NCBI RefSeq assembly: GCF_023161665.1
Contig: NZ_JALNTW010000001.1
Span: forward strand, 65,454 to 129,453
Length of the DNA stretch: 64,000 nucleotides
Direction: 5' to 3'
Source: Shewanella sp. 1CM18E
Lineage (GTDB): Bacteria; Pseudomonadota; Gammaproteobacteria; Enterobacterales; Shewanellaceae
Shown here: positions 1 through 9,094 of the stretch, piece by piece
Layout of the letters: the number at the start of each line of letters is the position of its first letter
Numbering within the stretch: position 1 is the first letter of the stretch
The notes under the pieces: generated by a model
What the model saw: the letters and a program-made list of their open reading frames with translations, nothing else
Told to the model about the DNA's origin: nothing
Database searches by the model: none
Made by a program: the position numbers and the translations under genes

Positions 1-907
1 GTCTGTCGTGGCCTGGTCTATCAGTTACATAAGTAATTTGTTCTTTGTACTGAGTTTCTTTTGGTACTAAAGAATCCAAAATAGAACAAATGGTTTGAAC
101 GACTTCTAAGTTCTGCTTTTCGTTATGACCACCAATGTTGTAGGTTGCACCTACAACACCTTCTGTAACGACTTTATAAAGTGCTCTAGCGTGATCTTCA
201 ACATATAGCCAATCCCGAATCTGGTCGCCTTTACCATAAATAGGTAATTGCTTTCCTTCTAATGCATTTAAAATCACCAGTGGGATCAGCTTTTCAGGGA
301 AGTGGTATGGTCCATAATTATTAGAACAGTTTGTTACTATCGTCGGTAAGCCATAGGTTCTTAACCAAGCGCGAACAAGGTGGTCTGAACTAGCCTTAGA
401 AGCAGAGTATGGGCTTGATGGTTCATAGGATGTCGTTTCTGTAAATAATGGTAATTCTTCTACACTTTCGACTTCATCAGGGTGCGGTAAATCGCCATAA
501 ACTTCATCGGTTGATATGTGATGGAAACGAAATTCTTGCTTAGCATCTACAGATAATGTGTTCCAATACGACCTTGTCGCTTCAAGAAGCGTATAGGTGC
601 CGACGATATTTGTTTGGATGAAATCGGCAGGGCCAGTGATTGAGCGATCAACGTGTGACTCTGCAGCTAAATGCATAACGGCATCAGGCTTGCATTGTGC
701 GAAAACTCGGTCTAATTCGGCGCGGTCACAAATATCAACTTGTTCGAACACATACCGTTCATTTGGCTCGATGCTTGCTAAGGATTCTAGGTTACCAGCG
801 TAAGTTAATTTATCGACATTGATAACACTATCTTGTGTATTATTGATGATATGACGCACGACTGCCGAGCCGATAAATCCTGCTCCACCTGTGACTAAGA
901 TTTTCAT
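1..907 (-). CDS. rmlB: dTDP-glucose 4,6-dehydratase, C-terminus cut by window edge
   Basis: It converts dTDP-glucose to dTDP-4-keto-6-deoxyglucose, the second step of dTDP-L-rhamnose and related sugar synthesis in the cytoplasm. The ATG is at 905-907 and about 302 codons are visible, where the family usually has about 355. The N-terminus carries the Rossmann motif TGGAGFIG at residues 6-13. Further on are the STDEVYG motif and a YSASK catalytic Tyr-x3-Lys, all typical of extended short-chain dehydrogenases of the RmlB type. It lies downstream of wzz in the same orientation, with a 286-base gap, and opens the sugar-nucleotide part of a polysaccharide locus continuing off the left edge. The family call is firm; the end is not seen. 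Confidence 0.95.
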
Positions 908-1145
908 ATTTATGTTTCCAAGATGTATTACTTGTCTAAAAACAAGTTCAATTTAGCATTGTGAATTGAATAATCACACTTTCTAATCCCAGCCTTTATA
1001 ACCAAGCTGAGAACCATTAATCCACTTTATAGACAGCGGATTTTATTTCTAAATAAGCGCTGTCCCTTATGAAGCTTTACAGGCTATTTCTAGTTCCAAT
1101 TACCTAAAAACAGTCCGGATATAAGCAGATCTAGACTCTAAGCTC

Positions 1146-1211
1146 TAGGTTTTAGGTTTTAGGTTTTAGGTTTTAGGTTTTAGGTTTTAGGTTTTAGGTT
1201 TTAGGTTTTAG
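1146..1211. repeat. Tandem heptamer array, about nine copies of TAGGTTT
   Basis: Nine perfect head-to-tail copies of the 7-mer TAGGTTT run from 1146 to 1208, followed by a partial copy. On the minus strand the array reads AAACCTA. The 3' end of wzz runs into it, so the last wzz codons (Lys-Pro-Lys-Thr-stop, stop at 1194-1196) are made of repeat units. Because 7 is not a multiple of 3, the stop falls at a fixed distance inside the array whatever the copy number, as long as about three units remain. Confidence 0.95.
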
Positions 1212-2186
1212 AGAATCTTTTCTCAAAAAATGCCTTATTAAAACAATCATTACAGCTAACATACCGCCTAACATTGTACCCAGTACACATATTAGCGCTC
1301 TTTTAGGGCCTGCTTTTTCTTCTGGAGCTAATGCAGGATCGATTGTTTTAAATACGTATTCATCACGTACTTCAGCAAACATAATCGTTTTAGCTTGCTC
1401 TTCGATAAGTTTATAAAGAATTGAACGAATGTCAGCTACGTTTGTGAGCGCAATCTGTTTATTTAAAAACTCACTACTTCGAATCGCTTCAGCAACGTCA
1501 CGCTCTTTCATTACTTTATTAATGTCTTGAATTAACCAATCTACCCATTGTTTCGCAACTGATGGTGACAAATGCTCAACAGATATCGTTACCATTCCAG
1601 TATCTTTTGCCGAGTTTACTGAAATAATTTTGCTAAATTCTTTATATGCTTCTTGCATAGAAGGCTCAGCCTTAAATGGTGCTTTAACTTCGCGCACCCA
1701 TACTTTATTTTGGGCGTCATATAATTCAGCATTGTAAGCAAGCATATCAGTAGACATGTCCCACTTCTCCGCAGCCATTAAGTCAGGCAAGATATTATGA
1801 GACTTAATAAAATCACTCGCGAATTGACGTGACTTTATCACCTCAATTGCCATCTGGGTTTTATCAACACCGCCACCTGCACCTAAGTTAATGCCCGCCA
1901 TACTGGCTAACCCACCAAACTGTCCTGCTAATGCGCTTAGTCCACCGCCTTGCTCGTCACTTGCAGGAGCTAATAATGCTTGAGACTTATAGGTATTAGG
2001 CTGTGCAAGTGCAAAAATAACAGAACCGATAGCAAAAACTGCTGTAACCGCAATAATCAACCATTTCCCTTGCCAGATGACTGAAAAGAGTTCGCGAAGA
2101 TCGATTTCGTCGTCTGCGGGATTATGAACGGAGTTCATATGAGGGAACTTAGCGTCAGTGTTTGTTTGTTGTATGTCTTTATTCAT
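1194..2186 (-). CDS. Wzz-type polysaccharide chain-length determinant
   Basis: This inner-membrane polysaccharide co-polymerase of 330 residues sets the chain length of Wzy-dependent O-antigen or capsule. It has the classic two-helix layout: a first membrane segment at about residues 41-60, a large periplasmic alpha/coiled region, and a second segment at about 297-317 preceded by a Pro-containing stretch (APEEKAGPKR). There is no C-terminal tyrosine-kinase domain, so it is Wzz rather than Wzc. The last residues KPKT and the stop codon come from the heptamer array. The ATG lies just downstream of a second, degenerate array that overlaps its Shine-Dalgarno region (AGGACC on the minus strand). 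The gene sits between the four-helix-bundle gene and rmlB. Confidence 0.9.
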   Translation of the reverse strand: MNKDIQQTNTDAKFPHMNSVHNPADDEIDLRELFSVIWQGKWLIIAVTAVFAIGSVIFALAQPNTYKSQALLAPASDEQGGGLSALAGQFGGLASMAGINLGAGGGVDKTQMAIEVIKSRQFASDFIKSHNILPDLMAAEKWDMSTDMLAYNAELYDAQNKVWVREVKAPFKAEPSMQEAYKEFSKIISVNSAKDTGMVTISVEHLSPSVAKQWVDWLIQDINKVMKERDVAEAIRSSEFLNKQIALTNVADIRSILYKLIEEQAKTIMFAEVRDEYVFKTIDPALAPEEKAGPKRALICVLGTMLGGMLAVMIVLIRHFLRKDSLKPKT

Positions 2187-2196
2187 TATATAAAGG

Positions 2197-2224
2197 TCCT
2201 AGGCCCTAGGTTCTAGGTGCAGGT
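2197..2224. repeat. Degenerate heptamer array (NNCTAGG) upstream of wzz
   Basis: Three clean 7-base units TCCTAGG, CCCTAGG and TTCTAGG at 2197-2217 are followed by a decayed unit (TGCAGG). They have the same period and TAGG core as the array at 1146-1211. A single perfect TAGGTTT also occurs at 2251-2257, inside the last codons of the four-helix-bundle gene. On the minus strand the array overlaps the wzz ribosome-binding region. Confidence 0.8.
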
Positions 2225-2242
2225 TCCGCTTGTAATTTTAAA

Positions 2243-2638
2243 TTAGATGTTAGGTTTGATATTGTATTCAGCTGCTGATTCTCTAACGCAGCCTTTTCTA
2301 ATCTTTATCAAAGCACCTAGCATTGCTGAAATTTCTCTAGCTTCCTTGATTAGCTTGAAACCATTTTGCTTTTCAATTACGCCTATTTCTATTGCGATGT
2401 AAATTTGAGTGGCAAGTTCACCTGAAGAGCCTTTAGCAAAATAAAGAAATCTTGCCGACTCGGCTTTAGATTCTCTTTCTTCACCCTCTGCAATATTTGA
2501 GGCAATGGAAACTGCAGCTCGCGTCATTTGGTCTTTTAATCCAAAATCGCGACATGTCTCCAATTCTGTATAGATGTCACAAGCTAAACGACAAGCTCGC
2601 TTCCAGACATCTAAGTTTTGAAATGCAAATAAATTCAC
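2243..2638 (-). CDS. Four-helix-bundle protein, S23/IVP (Avd-like) family
   Basis: The predicted protein of 131 residues is a small helical member of the S23 ribosomal intervening-sequence protein family, recognised from the N-terminal pattern FxFQNLDVWKRA, the central SIASNIAEG and the following ARFLYFAKGSSGE. The family is structurally related to Avd of diversity-generating retroelements, but the function of free-standing members is not established. I chose the GTG at 2636-2638 because AAGGA lies 9 bases upstream and the family normally starts close to that FxFxxLxVW motif; an in-frame ATG at 2669-2671 would add 11 residues but lacks a good Shine-Dalgarno. It interrupts the polysaccharide operon between the export gene and wzz. 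No reverse transcriptase or template repeat is visible here. Confidence 0.82.
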   Translation of the reverse strand: MNLFAFQNLDVWKRACRLACDIYTELETCRDFGLKDQMTRAAVSIASNIAEGEERESKAESARFLYFAKGSSGELATQIYIAIEIGVIEKQNGFKLIKEAREISAMLGALIKIRKGCVRESAAEYNIKPNI

Positions 2639-2707
2639 TGAATGCCATCCTTGGCTAGTTGAGCCTAACATTCATAAGCTAGGCTCTGTTCGGTCTCAAA
2701 CTTTTAT

Positions 2708-5449
2708 TTAAAGATTTGCGACTGTGGCGAATGCAACTGCTGTGTTGTAGATGATGCTTGTTACTTGCGTCCAAAGCGTTAGGTTATCTTTGTACTCTGT
2801 ATCAAGCGGCACAATGATTGTATCACCTGGTTGTAAGCTGGTTTCGCTACTGAACCAAACTGAACGACTTGGCAGCATCACTGAACCATCTGCTTTGATA
2901 ACATAAGTTCTATCATCATCAGCTCGTTCTCTAGCACCACCAGACATTGCTAAGTATTGGTCAACAGTTTGGCCTTCTTTGAACCTATGAGTTGCCGCAT
3001 GCTGAACTTCACCCATTACAGCAATGGTTTGCTTAGTCGATGGAATATATAGAACATCTTGATCTTCTAACTGCAGGTCTGCTTGCTTAATACCAACAGA
3101 TATCGCTGATAAATCGACAACTAAACGGCCAACTGCTTTGATTGTTTCAAGATCGGTAAGCATCATTTGTGCATCTGAGTAATTAACTACATTACCGTCT
3201 TTAGAAACACCGCGTGTTGCAATATCACGGCGCAGTTGATCTGCTAGCTTCTTGATTTCAAGCTGCTCTTGTTGACGCACAGACTCACGAACAAATACAG
3301 ATGATGGTAAATAAGCATACTCAGTAAATCCACCAGCACGTTGTAATACATCTGCTAGAGTCTCACCACGGCGGATGTTATATGTACCAGGGAATTTGAC
3401 TTCACCGCGAATTTCAACTGACTTGTTCTCTTGCCAGTCTGGTGTAGTCATCACGGTTAAAATATCGCGACCTTTAATGACGATGTTTTGTGTCTCGTCA
3501 CCATTTAATGCTGCTTCTAAGCCAATGTTAGTGTGCTTTATGGCTGAACCATCGACAGTTGTATATGTGCTTGTTAATTCTGCACGAGCTGTATACGCAC
3601 CCTCTTCTAGCCCGCCTGCAGCTACAACTAAATCTTTTATGCGAGCATTAACTGTTAACGGATAAATGCCGGGGTTATTCACTCGACCGTTAATAGCAAC
3701 CGCTTGAACACCAGCGCCGACTCTACCTTGGCTATTGAGCTTCATGATAATTGGGTAAAGCAGTTCACCTCGATTCATCACCCCACTTAACTCAATCAGC
3801 GCGCGATCTTCAAAAAGGTTTATCAACATTTTGTTGACTTCGCCCTTAACAGCCTTAGCTACAGGATCAGTATCTTGAACCTTACTATTAATTGCTACAC
3901 CACCTAACTCAGAACGTTCAGCAAATTTTTGCTGACTTAGTTGTGAGAATCCCGCTTCGAATAAATCATTACCGATTAACGAATTGCCAGCTAAAGATTG
4001 TACTTTCTCTACACGTTGCTTAACTAACTTGTTTAGCTCATAGCGGTTTTGCGTCAAATCGCTGAAATTAAAGAAAATCACTTTATCGCGAGCTTGAAGC
4101 GTTAAGTTTTGTGAAGCTTCTTTACTGTTAATCGCTTTTACTGGCGAGAACTGGTAAACCTGAATATCACCTTGCTTGTTTATTTCGCGTACAACAATCG
4201 CATATTCAAGATCAACTGACACATTTAAATCGCCCCAAATAGATGGAACAAGGTCGCTGATTTTTTGTCCTTGGTACCATTGATATTTACCTGGACGAAC
4301 CGCAGCACCAACCACTGTGATAGCATCTTCATATTGCGTTGTTGCGCTCTTAACTTGAATAACATCACCAGCAAGTGCTTTAGTCGCTCTGCCTGCTTTA
4401 GTTGTTAAGTCAACATTCAAAATAGACTTTAGGCTATTGTCGTTAAAACGCTCAACACTACTTTGTCTTGGGTACGCACCTGGCTTAATACCTGCTGCCA
4501 TTTCAATAACCTGAGCCATAGTTTCATTTTGCTTTAGCTCATAAATAGCAGGGCGGCGTACTTCACCCGTAACGCTAACTAAACCGCCTACTGAAGGAAT
4601 GAAAACCACATCGCCAGAGCGAAGGTTAATATCGCCGGATGCATCACCACGTAGCAGCAGATCATATAAATCCATGCTGCCTACAAGCTTTCCTTTACGC
4701 TTTACTTGAATATTACGCAGGGAGCCAATTTCATTAACGCCACCAGCAACGAACAGAGCTTGGGTAATGGTTGATAGGCTTGAAACTGTATAAGAGCCAG
4801 GTTTGTAGGCATCACCTGCAACAAAAATGCGAATTGAGCGTAATTCGCCCATTGTGATATTAGATTCAATACCAATCATTTGTTGGGTAATACGACTTGA
4901 TAACGTATCGCGCACTTCACTAAAGGTTAAACCCGCTACCGAAATTGGACCAAGTTCAGGGAATTGAATTACACCCTCGCGGTTAATAACAAGGTCGTAT
5001 TCTTTGTTATCTTTGCCGTAAAGCTGAACCTTAATATTGTCGCCAGGGCCTACTAAGTATTCACTAGGAACTGGAACATCAGAAACAGGGGCAAAAGTTG
5101 TTGGTTCGCCTTCGAATAAGTCATAACCAAAACGCTTTAGCTCATTTTTATTACTATCTTGCTCAAAATCTAATTCATTTTTGGCATTAACTGACTGGTC
5201 TACAACCTGAGTGGCTGGTGCACGCTGTTGCACAACCTCTGGGTTCTCAATCGGTGCTTGTTCTGATGAGCCACCTAGCATAGAAGGATCGATGCCATAT
5301 TGCTTAGCTAAGCGCTGTTGCTCCGATGCTGGAAGATTTTTAAATTGCTCAATCATTTGTGGGGAAGGCGCGATTGCGTTTGCCTGCCCTGACAATAAGA
5401 TCAGCGCCGACATACCAGCTATGATGAGTTTTTTAGTCTTGTTTAGCAC
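2708..5449 (-). CDS. Polysaccharide export protein with multiple SLBB domains (Wza-like)
   Basis: This periplasmic or outer-membrane export component has a signal peptide of about 25 residues (LIIAGMSALILLSGQANA), then a Poly_export domain at about 127-205 (SEYLVGPGDNIKVQLYG) and several successive SLBB-type beta-grasp repeats to the C-terminus, recognisable from recurring V-x-G-x-V/A-x-x-P-G-x-Y blocks. At 913 residues it is more than twice the length of E. coli Wza and lacks a lipobox cysteine, so it belongs to the long SLBB export group common in marine gammaproteobacteria. The start is a GTG at 5447-5449 with GGAG 9 bases upstream. It is the first gene after a long ops-containing leader. 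The exact substrate cannot be read. Confidence 0.88.
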   Translation of the reverse strand: MLNKTKKLIIAGMSALILLSGQANAIAPSPQMIEQFKNLPASEQQRLAKQYGIDPSMLGGSSEQAPIENPEVVQQRAPATQVVDQSVNAKNELDFEQDSNKNELKRFGYDLFEGEPTTFAPVSDVPVPSEYLVGPGDNIKVQLYGKDNKEYDLVINREGVIQFPELGPISVAGLTFSEVRDTLSSRITQQMIGIESNITMGELRSIRIFVAGDAYKPGSYTVSSLSTITQALFVAGGVNEIGSLRNIQVKRKGKLVGSMDLYDLLLRGDASGDINLRSGDVVFIPSVGGLVSVTGEVRRPAIYELKQNETMAQVIEMAAGIKPGAYPRQSSVERFNDNSLKSILNVDLTTKAGRATKALAGDVIQVKSATTQYEDAITVVGAAVRPGKYQWYQGQKISDLVPSIWGDLNVSVDLEYAIVVREINKQGDIQVYQFSPVKAINSKEASQNLTLQARDKVIFFNFSDLTQNRYELNKLVKQRVEKVQSLAGNSLIGNDLFEAGFSQLSQQKFAERSELGGVAINSKVQDTDPVAKAVKGEVNKMLINLFEDRALIELSGVMNRGELLYPIIMKLNSQGRVGAGVQAVAINGRVNNPGIYPLTVNARIKDLVVAAGGLEEGAYTARAELTSTYTTVDGSAIKHTNIGLEAALNGDETQNIVIKGRDILTVMTTPDWQENKSVEIRGEVKFPGTYNIRRGETLADVLQRAGGFTEYAYLPSSVFVRESVRQQEQLEIKKLADQLRRDIATRGVSKDGNVVNYSDAQMMLTDLETIKAVGRLVVDLSAISVGIKQADLQLEDQDVLYIPSTKQTIAVMGEVQHAATHRFKEGQTVDQYLAMSGGARERADDDRTYVIKADGSVMLPSRSVWFSSETSLQPGDTIIVPLDTEYKDNLTLWTQVTSIIYNTAVAFATVANL

Positions 5450-5725
5450 CGGTGTTCTCCGAAAAAGGACTTAGAATAAAAAGGTAATATTGATTATTAA
5501 GATGTAGCTCTTAAATAATGCTTTAAAAATTGTTTTAGCACTAGATTAGGCTGCAACTGACAAAATAAGAGTATTATTGTCTATAACATTTTGTCCGTGA
5601 GACAAAGAAGTTAGCTAACCGCAGCAGTCTAGCCAACATTAAACGCACTAAAGTACAGGCCTCAAAAATGGCGTAACCCATTCTAATATTTCAACCTAAT
5701 CTGCATCAGGATACTTGCTTTTAGA

Positions 5726-5737
5726 CACGCTACCGCC
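5726..5737 (-). promoter_or_regulatory. ops element (RfaH recruitment site)
   Basis: The minus strand reads GGCGGTAGCGTG, identical to the ops core of E. coli RfaH-controlled operons as I know it. In the established mechanism RNA polymerase pauses here and RfaH binds the exposed non-template strand. An rfaH homologue lies about 700 bases upstream on the same strand, and the next gene is a polysaccharide exporter, exactly the expected partner. Confidence 0.9.
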
Positions 5738-6006
5738 CATGGATTACGGCTTCCAAAATGCCCGTCTGCAGTGCAGACACTCCCAAAAGAGTATTAATTT
5801 TTCATCAGATTAAGCCCATAAACTAAATGGCTTAATTCCAAATTCGCTTTCCAAGCTAAAAACACCCAACAAGCTTTCACAGATGGCTAAATCGCCAATA
5901 CGTGAGTAACCTGAGATTTAAAAGCGCTCATTTAACTTTGACTGGATAGCTTTTGCCGGGCGATTTTCACACAAAGCAATAACATCGCTAAATACTACCG
6001 CGCCGT

Positions 6007-6012
6007 ATTATA
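6007..6012 (-). promoter_or_regulatory. Possible -10 box for the polysaccharide operon
   Basis: A perfect TATAAT on the minus strand lies about 270 bases upstream of the ops element and about 560 upstream of the export gene. No good -35 hexamer lies 16-18 bases away (CTGCTT at spacing 17), so the call rests on the -10 box and context alone. Confidence 0.3.
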
Positions 6013-6433
6013 CATAAGAAGTTGTGCCTAAGCAGCAGTTCCTCCGCCTCAAGCACTATGACTGCTGAAAGTTTCTGCACTTCCTAGAACTTTTCAAACT
6101 ATACTGGTAGCCCAGATTAAAAATAAAGCCAGTAAAAAATGATTGTAAAAAAGGTGATTAATAAAGAAACCCTATATTACGCCTGAGGTTGCTCTCACTA
6201 ACAAGCCACTGTATACAAGGTAAATTAGCGCATAAAAATACAATCACTCTTTAATTATTAATGCATATTTTTTATATAAAATATTTCAAAAACTGATTGC
6301 CTATGGCAAATATCCTACACAGCTACCAAGTAATTTCTTACTCTATAACCTAAAGGTTTATATTGCGACCCAAAAAGATATCAAAGCCGCAAAGCAGTAA
6401 CAACAAAGCTACAACTCACAAGAATGGGACAAA

Positions 6434-6952
6434 CTAAATCAGCTTTATCGCGCTGCGTTCAACTGCGACTTTTTGCTGTTTGCCCATTAATTCAAACAAA
6501 ACAAAACAGCGCTTTTCACCATTTTGTTCACCAAATATTCCTTCAAGCTCTACAAATGGCCCTTCAGTAAAACGTACTTTGTCTCCAACTGTAAATTCCT
6601 GCTCTACAACTTTTTCTGGATTCTCAGAAGACTCTAGCGAAAGCATTTTATGTTCACGCATTTTGATCGCATGGATAACGCTATCGTCAATGGCAGTCAT
6701 TAGCTCTTTACAGCCGACAATTCTCACTACACCACGAGTATTATGGATTTTTGATACGCTAGTGATCAGGGGATCAAAGTAAGCAAAAAGATAACTAGGA
6801 AATAGGGATACACGCTTAACAACACTTTGCCCTTTAACCTTCTTTTCTTCAGGATAGGTGGGTAAATAGGTTTCAATGTGCTGAAGTGCCAGATTTTGCT
6901 GTGCTCGAGCTTCTCCTCGAGATTTACAATAAATCAAATACCATGCCTTCAT
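6434..6952 (-). CDS. rfaH: Transcription antiterminator RfaH (specialised NusG paralogue)
   Basis: RfaH binds RNA polymerase at ops sites, suppresses pausing and Rho termination, and couples ribosomes to long surface-polysaccharide operons. The 172-residue protein has an N-terminal NGN domain beginning MKAWYLIYCKSRGE and containing VSLFPSYLFAYFD, and a C-terminal KOW-type region with TVGDKVRFTEGPF. Length and motifs fit RfaH rather than general NusG. I start it at the ATG at 6950-6952; an upstream in-frame TTG at 7016-7018 would add 22 residues unlike the family. It lies alone upstream of the ops-containing leader and is probably the activator of that operon. Confidence 0.93.
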   Translation of the reverse strand: MKAWYLIYCKSRGEARAQQNLALQHIETYLPTYPEEKKVKGQSVVKRVSLFPSYLFAYFDPLITSVSKIHNTRGVVRIVGCKELMTAIDDSVIHAIKMREHKMLSLESSENPEKVVEQEFTVGDKVRFTEGPFVELEGIFGEQNGEKRCFVLFELMGKQQKVAVERSAIKLI

Positions 6953-7300
6953 GCCAATGCTTCTTCCTTCAGTTAATATAGGTTCGTGACGTCCTATCCA
7001 CGGCAGGCATATTAACAAACTCCACTTATTTATTAAAACTAGAATCGCGTCAAAATGCTGGCGATAACGTATTTCCTGTATGTATAAGTACGCATAACGT
7101 TCAACTGCTCACTAACCCACCAATTGCACGTTCAAAATTGACTTTATCGCCTCATAAAGGGTATATAAGGTAGGCTTTATCGCATTTGGCGCTATTTTTT
7201 GCGGCAGATCAGAAAAAACAGAATACAAGCCAACAATAAAACAGTTAAGCACGCTACAAATCCACAAAAGAATTTACATTCCTAGTCGATTGCATCGTGT

Positions 7301-7329
7301 TTGACCGAAATAATTTAAGAAAATAAATT
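7301..7329 (+). promoter_or_regulatory. Candidate sigma-70 promoter of the peptide symporter gene
   Basis: TTGACC (7301-7306) and TAAATT (7324-7329) are separated by 17 bases, placing the start point near 7336 and giving a leader of about 45 bases. The -35 matches consensus at five of six positions and the -10 at four. Confidence 0.4.
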
Positions 7330-7330
7330 T

Positions 7331-7354
7331 CTGCAACGAAAATTTCAGTTGCAG
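7331..7354 (+). promoter_or_regulatory. Inverted repeat at the predicted transcript start of the symporter gene
   Basis: CTGCAAC (7331-7337) and GTTGCAG (7348-7354) are perfect 7-base arms around a 10-base AT-rich spacer. The element sits immediately downstream of the candidate -10 box and about 25 bases before the ATG. It could be an operator or a 5' RNA stem; the sequence does not decide between them. Confidence 0.4.
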
Positions 7355-7380
7355 GCAATCACAAGTGAAGGTGGAAAAAC

Positions 7381-8853
7381 ATGAACGCAGCAAAACCCCA
7401 GGGGACCATGCTCGGGCATCCTAAAGGACTGTTCCTGTTGTTTACAACGGAGTTATGGGAACGTTTTAGTTATTACGCTATGCGTGCAATTTTGGTTTTA
7501 TATCTAGTTGACGCAGTACAATCTCAAGGTGGTCACGGTCTGGGTTGGACCCAAGCTGATGCACTTTCTCTTTATGGCACGTTTACTGGCTTAGTTTATC
7601 TAACCCCACTTATTGGTGGTTGGTTAGCTGATAATTATTTAGGTCAACGCCGAGCTATTATGATTGGTGGCGCTTTGATGGCCGCAGGTCAATTTATTCT
7701 AGGTACACCTCATGCTTGGGTGCCAGGAATGGAAGCTGAAGTATTTTACATTGGTCTAGGTGTACTAATCCTTGGTAACGGTTTATTCAAGCCAAATATC
7801 TCAACTATGGTTGGTGATTTGTATGAAGAAGGCGACCACCGTCGTGATGGTGCGTTTACTATCTTCTATATGGGTATTAACGTTGGTGCATTCTTATCTG
7901 GTATTATCGTAGGTTCTGTTGTTGCCTATTATGATGGTAACTTCCAAACTGGCTTTATCTGTGCCGGTATTGGTATGGTACTTTCTCTTATTATTCAGTT
8001 TGTATTCGCTCAAAAACTACTTGGCGACATCGGCCGTGTTCCAGCTGCCCAGCTTGAGAAAGAAAAAGCTGCCGCTAGCGGCGAGGTTCGTAAGGAACCG
8101 CTAACTAAGATTGAACGTGATCGTATTAAAGTGATTATGATCATGGGTCTGTTCACTATTATCTTCTGGGCTGGCTTTGAGCAGGCCGGTGGTTTGATGA
8201 ATATTTTCACCAACGACTTTACTGATCGTATGATTGGCGGCTGGGAAGTACCAACAACTTGGTTCCAGTCTCTTAACGCTATGTTCATCGTTATTTTTGC
8301 ACCAGTAATTGCCTCAATTTGGGTCCGCTTAGGTAAGAATGAACCTAACTCTCCAGTTAAATTCGCGTTAGGCCTTATTTTATTAGGTATTGGTTTCCTA
8401 TTCATGATCGGTGCTGTTTTAGAGATGGGCGGCGACGCTAATGCTAAATCAAGCATGTGGTGGTTAGTAGGTGCATACTTCTTCCATACAATGGGTGAGC
8501 TATGTTTATCACCTATCGGTCTATCTATGGTGACTAAACTTGCTCCACTGCGTATCGCCTCTCTAATGATGGGTGCATGGTTCCTATTTATTGCTGCTGC
8601 AAATAAAATCGGTGGGATCGTTGGCTCATTAATAGGTCATGGTGGTGGTAAAGAAGAACAGCTTGCAAATGCAATGTCTATCTTCGCAGGTATCGCCATC
8701 ACAGCCGCTATCTCAGGCGTGCTCTTATACTTTATGGCAGACAAGCTTGTTGACTGGATGCACGGTGCTGAAGACAGTTCTCACCATTCTGAAGAACAAG
8801 CATTAGAAGAAGAAATTGCGGTAACTGCTGAACATGAAGCAATTAGACGTTAA
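7381..8853 (+). CDS. Proton-dependent oligopeptide transporter (POT/PTR2 family)
   Basis: This inner-membrane major-facilitator protein imports di- and tripeptides with protons. It has 490 residues and many hydrophobic helices. The N-terminal helix carries the family's proton-coupling ExxERF motif (ELWERFSYYAMR), and the PTR2 signature appears as FYMGINVGAFLSG. The C-terminus ends in a His/Glu-rich cytoplasmic tail. The start is well supported by AAGGTGG about 9 bases upstream. It is a single-gene transcription unit with its own candidate promoter and a strong terminator after it, and has no evident link to the flagellar genes. Confidence 0.93.
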   Translation: MNAAKPQGTMLGHPKGLFLLFTTELWERFSYYAMRAILVLYLVDAVQSQGGHGLGWTQADALSLYGTFTGLVYLTPLIGGWLADNYLGQRRAIMIGGALMAAGQFILGTPHAWVPGMEAEVFYIGLGVLILGNGLFKPNISTMVGDLYEEGDHRRDGAFTIFYMGINVGAFLSGIIVGSVVAYYDGNFQTGFICAGIGMVLSLIIQFVFAQKLLGDIGRVPAAQLEKEKAAASGEVRKEPLTKIERDRIKVIMIMGLFTIIFWAGFEQAGGLMNIFTNDFTDRMIGGWEVPTTWFQSLNAMFIVIFAPVIASIWVRLGKNEPNSPVKFALGLILLGIGFLFMIGAVLEMGGDANAKSSMWWLVGAYFFHTMGELCLSPIGLSMVTKLAPLRIASLMMGAWFLFIAAANKIGGIVGSLIGHGGGKEEQLANAMSIFAGIAITAAISGVLLYFMADKLVDWMHGAEDSSHHSEEQALEEEIAVTAEHEAIRR

Positions 8854-8915
8854 TAACTTTTCTAAAATAACTATGTCTCTCACGACTAAGTTACATTAGA
8901 GTCAAATTAGATCTT

Positions 8916-8946
8916 AAAAGCCTCGTATATACGAGGCTTTTTTATT
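8916..8946 (+). terminator. Intrinsic terminator after the peptide symporter gene
   Basis: AAAAGCCTCGT and ACGAGGCTTTT form a perfect 11-base stem around ATAT, followed on the plus strand by a continuous T run. Confidence 0.9.
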
Positions 8947-9094
8947 ACGCGGTTACGAGCTGTCTTTGACTTATAAATTAAGGTTTGTGTACACAAGAGT
9001 CGCTGTCTATAACCTTTAAAAGCTACCCTGAGCGCTGCATTTGCAAAATGCAGCACACTTTAAAGTCGCCAATCAAAATAACCTGTAACTGTGT

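Follow-up and report, generated by a model that had tools for sequence, protein, structure and literature searches.

The question raised by this locus is why a small gene of the S23 family lies between a wza-like polysaccharide export gene and wzz, and whether it belongs together with the seven-base tandem repeats (heptamers) found around it. The locus is part of a 64,000-bp stretch of Shewanella sp. 1CM18E (contig NZ_JALNTW010000001.1, positions 65,454 to 129,453), here called the window; the host genome is 4.94 Mb. A linkage between S23 genes and heptamer arrays is well supported, both within the genus and in unrelated phyla. The S23 gene and its heptamers are read here as one genetic unit, in which the gene is placed between two inverted arrays and the heptamer varies between genomes. 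Taken with the proposals on protein ligand and movement given below, this reading has a probability of roughly 0.48, and the joint mechanism of the unit is a proposal.

The widest comparison used S23 loci from named genomes, namely the best 80 of at least 587 relatives and not a random sample; four loci near a contig end were dropped, leaving 76. Seven was the commonest tandem period in these loci (251 of 856 rows). Period-7 runs of at least four units were located within 150 bp of S23 upstream in 36, downstream in 33 and on either side in 46 of the 76 loci, as compared to 15 of 759 mostly coding far windows. Counts for period 6 (3/76 vs 5/759) and period 8 (7/76 vs 4/759) were small but above those of the far windows. 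Gaps compared with other gaps of the same loci are the fairer test. Period 7 was present in 60 of 136 gaps beside S23 and in 39 of 252 other gaps (p 2e-9), while period 6 (3/136 vs 1/252, p 0.13) and period 8 (8/136 vs 7/252, p 0.17) gave no significant difference. The first-pass annotation of the window had held that heptamers equally frequent beside unrelated genes would speak against a unit; they do occur there, also at six of eight sites in the own genome of the window, but at the lower rate just given. The main self-match peaks of the S23 gaps were at lags 7, 14, 21 and 28 (0.40, 0.37, 0.35 and 0.32 upstream, base about 0.27). Lag 7 in other gaps of the same loci reached 0.32 (difference p 4e-10 upstream, 2e-8 downstream). 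The result was replicated in 23 loci of a class sample (lag-7 self-match 0.46 and 0.42, vs 0.26 far away; 6 of 29 loci dropped as clipped or short) and in 18 loci of an order sample (0.42 and 0.40 vs 0.25; L190 of the window's genus included), both of which may share genomes with the named set. Among 110 runs of at least three units, 84 have 3-5 units.

Whole genomes gave a similar picture. In the order sample four successive TAGGN3 units were found in 19 of 36 S23 genomes (three of them below the family cut-off) and in 24 of 238 others (p 1.5e-8; p 0.0037 over nine genus strata). The same word read backward, which is another heptamer class, was found in 10/36 and 18/238, and an eight-base spacing had no link with S23 in this sample (5/36 vs 22/238, p 0.37). 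In the class sample 6 of 60 S23 genomes had GGGANTN x4, compared to 2 of 260 genomes without S23 (p 7e-4). The S23 match of G494 lies between two GGGANTN arrays that are oriented toward each other, and in G455 and G626 one array ends within about 50 bases of the match. The idea that all arrays belong to a single TAGG family was given up, as other genomes carry other heptamers.

The arrays on the two sides of S23 are usually inverted relative to each other. Among 25 loci with arrays on both sides, the downstream heptamer agreed better with the upstream one as its reverse complement in 21 and as a direct copy in two, and two loci were ties, one of them masked; the mean inverted identity of the two arms, this masked locus included, was 5.4 of 7. 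The dinucleotide AG occurs in 82% of 134 heptamers when read on the S23 strand and in 37% when read on the opposite one. In a rotation-free model the core reads A/G, G, then T/C and has 3.01 bits, compared to 2.42 (sd 0.13, maximum 2.86 of 20) after scrambling of strands, one all-N heptamer being dropped and related genomes counted at full weight. The Grimontia flank heptamer CAGGACC (x3) has 105 matches in its own genome, of which the S23 flank itself accounts for 36 and no fewer than eight other sites for the rest, and no match in 24 other S23 genomes; read backward it is nearly the same word, so that the backward control is idle there. For the heptamer CAGTTTT, which comes from locus L209 of a Neisseriaceae genome, there are 51 matches (x3) in Persicirhabdus, whose S23 locus L217 bears a CAGTTTT flank unit, one match in Flagellimonas and none in 22 genomes. 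Specificity for the own genome is shown for CAGGACC and mixed for CAGTTTT.

The locus in the window contains the following features:

2243-2638, minus strand: S23 (four-helix-bundle) gene, 131 amino acids from GTG 2638, PF05635
2194-2224, minus strand: downstream heptamer arm in the gap between S23 and wzz, CCTANNN on the S23-coding strand, from Tandem Repeats Finder (TRF), pattern match and sequence
1146-1211, plus strand: tandem array of 9.4 perfect TAGGTTT copies at the wzz 3' end, from TRF
2661-2686, minus strand: inverted repeat GAGCCTA (2661-2667) / TAGGCTC (2680-2686) in the S23 leader, from sequence and genus orientation
1194-2186, minus strand: wzz chain-length gene, downstream neighbour of S23, PF02706 and PF13807
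2708-5449, minus strand: wza-like SLBB polysaccharide export gene, upstream neighbour of S23, PF02563, PF10531 and PF22461
6434-6952, minus strand: rfaH, upstream regulator gene, TIGR01955 with 167.6 bits (cut-off 144.5)

The open reading frame (ORF) list and profile scans give the minus-strand order rfaH, wza-like gene, S23, wzz, rmlB. The small S23-type gene that had been placed between export gene and wzz is confirmed, with 113 bits for PF05635 (cut-off 33.8) and 108.5 bits for NCBIfam TIGR02436, 'four helix bundle protein' (cut-off 24). Its start is more likely GTG 2638, giving 131 amino acids, than ATG 2671 of the listed ORF 2243-2671; the start codons of relatives align with GTG 2638, behind the Shine-Dalgarno in GCCAAGGATGGC. 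With this start the inverted repeat at 2661-2686, which had been thought to mark the other end of the gene, is present as described and would be part of the upstream leader. Its TAGGCTC copy is a single unit, oriented as expected for an upstream arm.

The TAGGTTT array, previously described as nine copies forming the 3' end of wzz, is real, but only 18 bp (1194-1211) are inside the gene and about 48 of 66 bp lie past its stop. A gap of 56 bp separates the S23 stop (2243) from the wzz start (2186). The downstream arm in this gap overlaps the ribosome-binding region of wzz, as had been stated for the degenerate copies, and TRF detects 3.6 units at 2194-2218 (score 36). The single TAGGTTT at 2251-2257 is also present and is no evidence by itself, since the window has 22 matches outside the array, compared to 9.2 expected from shuffles for all. 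Three TAGGN3 units with at most one mismatch have 12 matches in the window vs 0.15 expected. In the own genome (G000) 26 exact matches to three such units are distributed over five contigs and, by our grouping, eight sites, two of which are the arrays of this locus. The other six are located where unrelated genes end, at the 3' end or close to it; neighbours, named by eye, include a TlpA-like and a glutathione-transferase-like gene, csdA- and csdE-like genes on both sides of one array and a gapA-like gene in front of another. With several similar arrays scattered over its genome, the repeat fits the dispersed heptamers of other bacteria. Octamer TAGG arrays, TAGGAAAG and TAGGTTGC, also occur in the own genome (G000:C8:60804-60879 and G000:C22:207034-207069).

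PF05635 was matched in 63 of 117 genomes of the genus (62 above cut-off), and 120 of 125 planned locus stretches were taken in. Contigs with a wza-like gene hold 92 S23 match rows, in which each fragment of a broken copy counts as a row: 55 are 86-446 bp downstream of that gene, 17 are 3.1-6.3 kb upstream, and 91 are on its strand. The second favoured site, about 3-6 kb upstream (e.g. L061-L067, L071-L074), has its own array about 100-250 bp behind the S23 match in several genomes. TAGGN3 x4 was found in 86 of 117 genomes, with up to 177 matches in one. The median was 25 matches in S23 genomes and 1 in S23-less genomes, and at least 10 matches were reached by 46 of 63 of the former vs 9 of 54 of the latter (Mann-Whitney p 9e-10, kinship ignored).

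The link is clearer at single loci. Within 300 bp of S23 there were 95 TAGGN3 x4 matches, spread over 15 of 72 loci, compared to 0.71 expected from genome density, and a four-unit array was present in 25 of 56 wza loci with S23 and in 3 of 48 without. Gaps adjoining S23 had a lag-7 self-match of 0.352; the value was 0.307 for the remaining gaps of S23 loci and 0.282 for loci lacking S23. Counted over runs of at least two units within 300 bp of the 92 S23 matches, orientation on the S23 strand was TAGG rather than CCTA upstream (13 vs 6) and CCTA rather than TAGG downstream (24 vs 5). By eye, the gap beside S23 between the wza-like gene and wzz in L058, L070 and L154 contains another short-repeat family, of GCGAAGCG / GAACGCTTCGC type. 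A shorter wza-like protein of about 830-860 amino acids occurs in G009, G015, G024, G029, G036 and others; it aligns to about 1-464 and 559-913 of the window's protein and is without some 95 middle residues.

Presence of S23 at the wza-wzz site is patchy and its sequence is exchanged. An intact S23 is located there in 44 genomes of the genus, and at least 21 changes of presence are required on the wza tree of 101 genomes. In 99 of 146 pairs with wza more than 84% identical, the S23 proteins are less than 60% identical; wza of G000 and G032, for example, is 97% and S23 43% identical. In 12 pairs picked by hand from the 146, the last shared 16-mer before S23 was at -34 to +164 relative to the wza end, and shared 16-mers resumed past S23 at +5 to +221 relative to the wzz start. 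The earlier claim that gene and heptamers form one mobile or hypervariable unit is upheld for the linkage and for hypervariability, and its mobile part is inferred. By eye, the middle of S23 is deleted between two arrays in L147 (G068), and in L069 (G087) a decayed S23 remnant is left with the array on the wzz side. Solo arrays might arise in this way, through deletion or decay of S23 with the arrays staying. In G043, G059 and G070 the gap is short (64-86 bp); viewed by eye, these gaps showed no borders, and G059 was dropped as an empty-site comparison because both its gap and its wzz start differ from those of the other genomes.

An AlphaFold2 model of the window's S23 protein (pLDDT 91) has the four-helix bundle of solved family members, and the best Foldseek matches were 2gsc (XCC0516 of Xanthomonas campestris, E 5.6e-6) and 2rld (E 2.3e-4), which hold five chains each. 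The next matches were Avd, the accessory protein of diversity-generating retroelements, and the Avd chains of such an element's ribonucleoprotein (4dwl, 8ub7), with a TM-score of about 0.65-0.69 by query length. Among viral proteins the best matches were Avd-like, and none had an E-value below 0.001. It is plausible that S23 binds nucleic acid, because the modelled fold resembles Avd, including the Avd of a ribonucleoprotein. No reverse transcriptase was found among the ORFs of window positions 1-9000 (five scanned by profile, the rest by list), or among 30 neighbour proteins of the named loci at E 1e-8.

Those 30 proteins were assigned to Pfam families, two being without a family. In Grimontia and Photobacterium S23 is flanked by wza and wzb. 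One Verrucomicrobium has S-adenosylmethionine synthetase and adenosylhomocysteinase (metK-ahcY) beside it, and a second has adenosylhomocysteinase. Both subunits of ribonucleotide reductase (nrd) are neighbours in Prosthecobacter and the small subunit in Persicirhabdus. The neighbours in Paraglaciecola are histidine genes; Amphritea and Roseibacillus each have a sugar nucleotide gene there and Cerasicoccus a glycosyltransferase, and a cys context is also among the S23 sites. Polysaccharide genes are therefore a frequent context and one among many, and the suggestion that the unit enters surface-polysaccharide loci in particular did not hold. By a crude ORF call the upstream neighbour was on the S23 strand in 19 of 26 named loci, the downstream neighbour in 19 of 25, and both in 14. 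An operon setting is therefore common without being the rule.

The leader of the window's S23 contains one further element:

2644-2655, minus strand: hairpin GCC[AAGGAT]GGC with the Shine-Dalgarno in the hexaloop, CsrA/RsmA-type site, from sequence and genus enrichment

Of the 92 S23 matches in the genus, 18 without start codon and Shine-Dalgarno and 8 duplicates were dropped. Among the remaining 66 starts, 36 have an ANGGAN hexaloop on a stem of at least three pairs over the Shine-Dalgarno, compared to 3 of the 769 starts of other genes in these loci; with stems of at least four pairs the counts are 27 vs 0. Eighteen different stem-loop forms occur. The consensus of the CsrA site is RUACARGGAUGU, with six-base loops (PMC7652899). 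By sequence, the window leader has this target form, ANGGA in the loop over the Shine-Dalgarno, and in this genus CsrA might repress translation of S23 by binding the hairpin. Regulation of the leader by S23 itself was considered and rejected: the ANGGAN hexaloop with mostly a C-G closing pair fits the CsrA consensus better, and the hairpin is no general feature outside the genus.

In the proposed mechanism, such units would lodge in gaps between genes of many functions, often co-directional, and solo arrays would be scattered over the host genome. Here the unit would be located between the wza-like gene and wzz, its downstream arm occupying the leader of wzz, and the end of wzz would have gained a further array. 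The S23 protein might bind nucleic acid, the ligand being the heptamer tract, and arrays could thereby be kept, spread or used. The unit may move by recombination or replication slippage at the arrays, without a transposase of its own. A comparable arrangement is that of RAYT and REP, in which a protein gene is flanked by inverted copies of a repeat scattered over the genome. It differs in that RAYT acts as a tyrosine transposase, whereas S23 is not known to have a catalytic motif, and in that the REP repeat is a short palindrome. An extended form of the proposal, in which S23 is the cognate partner of heptamer tracts, its genes, set between inverted arrays of a heptamer private to the genome, are small transposase-free elements of Avd fold that lodge between genes in many phyla and seed solo arrays over the host genome, the rRNA intervening sequence is the best-known case, and a five-chain ring reads one heptamer per subunit (most runs having the 3-5 units noted above), is tentative and rather doubtful as a whole. 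TRAP, which acts on triplets, is an analogy for a ring that reads one repeat per subunit.

Several observations weigh against the unit. No clean empty site with borders and no target duplication was found. Inverted termini are usual in the 25 two-sided loci, while the upstream arm in the window consists of one unit. No run of four units was present on either side in 30 of 76 named loci, and only 15 of 72 S23 loci of the genus have a four-unit TAGG array within 300 bp. CAGTTTT x3 has one match in its own genome. The backward-read TAGG pattern matches 32 of 117 genomes of the genus by our count, with a maximum of 24, and is silent in most. Nine of 54 S23-less genomes reach 10 or more forward matches, with 73 in the near relative G059, and 15 of 63 S23 genomes have fewer than five. 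Corrected for kinship, the link in the genus is modest: 17 independent pairs gave 7.7 for and 1.2 against at 10 or more matches (median p 0.04), and at thresholds of 1, 5 and 20 matches the same test was not significant. The tree was that of the wza protein from 101 genomes, and wza is itself part of the operon; G101 was left out of it, as were two wza rows that contained more than two stops. The simple claim at genome level (p 9e-10) is weakened because the tree-based test is modest, and kinship explains part of it. The Foldseek E-values for Avd are weak (0.11 to 0.72), at 11-14% identity. The hairpin of the window is not the minimum-energy fold of its 41-nt stretch (z 0.64), and hairpins are not general outside the genus, where the looser measure (stem of at least four pairs) gave 5 of 25 gamma and 2 of 22 other starts, close to the 104 of 769 of the control.

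Some of these observations suit an alternative in which the arrays are slippage-prone intergenic repeats and S23 is dispensable cargo, exchanged by homologous recombination in gaps permissive for both and unrelated to the repeats. The modest association after correction for kinship, arrays beside unrelated genes (in the own genome and in 39 of 252 other gaps) and swaps with limits at about the wza stop and in early wzz, a pattern expected of recombination, are all in line with it. Slippage, however, predicts neither the inversion nor an AG core tied to the S23 coding strand, and in unrelated phyla period 7 is prominent on both sides, in inverted arrays that share a core and an orientation; this alternative is regarded as unlikely. 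That the arrays are ordinary simple repeats, met by chance or through annotation, has an almost negligible probability: single TAGGTTT copies are common in the window and the backward pattern matches some genomes, but the controls with other periods, other gaps and far windows contradict it.

Two further alternatives give the arrays a function in the operon. Recombination between the arrays, as direct or inverted repeats, could delete or swap export genes and produce phase-locked capsule variants, as proposed for wzb of Vibrio vulnificus, where repeats flank wzb and the allele-2 units A/CCTAGG/AAA/C can be read as including CCTAGAA (PMC7247339). A repeat region is described there between wza and a hypothetical gene, HP (PMC7247339), and S23 has the wza-wzb position in Grimontia and Photobacterium; the deleted or decayed S23 of G068 and G087 between or beside arrays would also agree. 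A switch is implausible beside nrd, his and metK-ahcY genes, where the unit is found as well, and this explanation is considered improbable. Alternatively, the inverted arrays might pair in the polycistronic mRNA, and RNase III might excise the S23 segment and so alter processing or expression of the neighbours. The inverted arms around the ORF would allow this, and excision by RNase III together with a 28-bp terminal stem is reported for Coxiella (PMC4990558). The arms are mostly not identical, at a mean of 5.4 of 7, and the window is almost without an upstream arm; this explanation is considered very improbable.

Known systems share parts of what is seen here. The intervening sequence in the 23S rRNA of Coxiella burnetii has three tandem GACAGAT heptamers upstream of the S23p ORF, and terminal inverted repeats (PMC4990558). 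It resembles the present case in the S23 family name, the inverted termini and heptamers upstream of the ORF, and it is called a selfish element (PMC4990558). It differs in its position within the 23S rRNA gene and in a protein that is thought not to be made (PMC4990558), whereas the window's S23 sits between wza-like gene and wzz, outside 23S rRNA; the frame between the protein genes here is open and conserved, and the genome has further heptamers that share the core. Dispersed heptamers are described as GGGAATC in Xanthomonas and GGGGA(C/T)T in Nostoc and Anabaena, also in Calothrix (PMC4692102), and as TAACTGA in Beggiatoaceae, Microcystis and some Bacteroidetes (PMC4679880). Like the arrays here they have seven-base units, few per array, and are mostly intergenic (PMC4692102, PMC4679880). 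The S23 structure 2gsc, too, comes from a Xanthomonas, X. campestris. No protein is linked to them in the accessible parts of these papers, where a word search of PMC4679880 for S23, STRR and four helix was empty and no search aimed at S23 was made in PMC4692102. Avd of the diversity-generating retroelements shares its fold with S23 according to Foldseek, and differs in the reverse transcriptase, which was not seen near the S23 genes examined. The group 1 capsule operon of V. vulnificus has CCTAG-type repeats around the small hypothetical gene HP between wza and wzb; they were interpreted as a deletion hot spot (PMC7247339). A search that misses most subscription journals found no publication that makes a general link between S23 genes and heptamer arrays; PMC4990558 comes closest.

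If the reading of gene and heptamers as one unit is true, two puzzles would become one, the role of free-standing S23 proteins and that of the dispersed seven-base repeats of many bacteria. S23 would gain a testable ligand and the heptamers a candidate partner protein. The unit may explain the repeat-rich, swap-prone spot in capsule operons, perhaps also the one to which capsule loss in Vibrio vulnificus is ascribed. For the genus of the window, control of S23 by CsrA is predicted.

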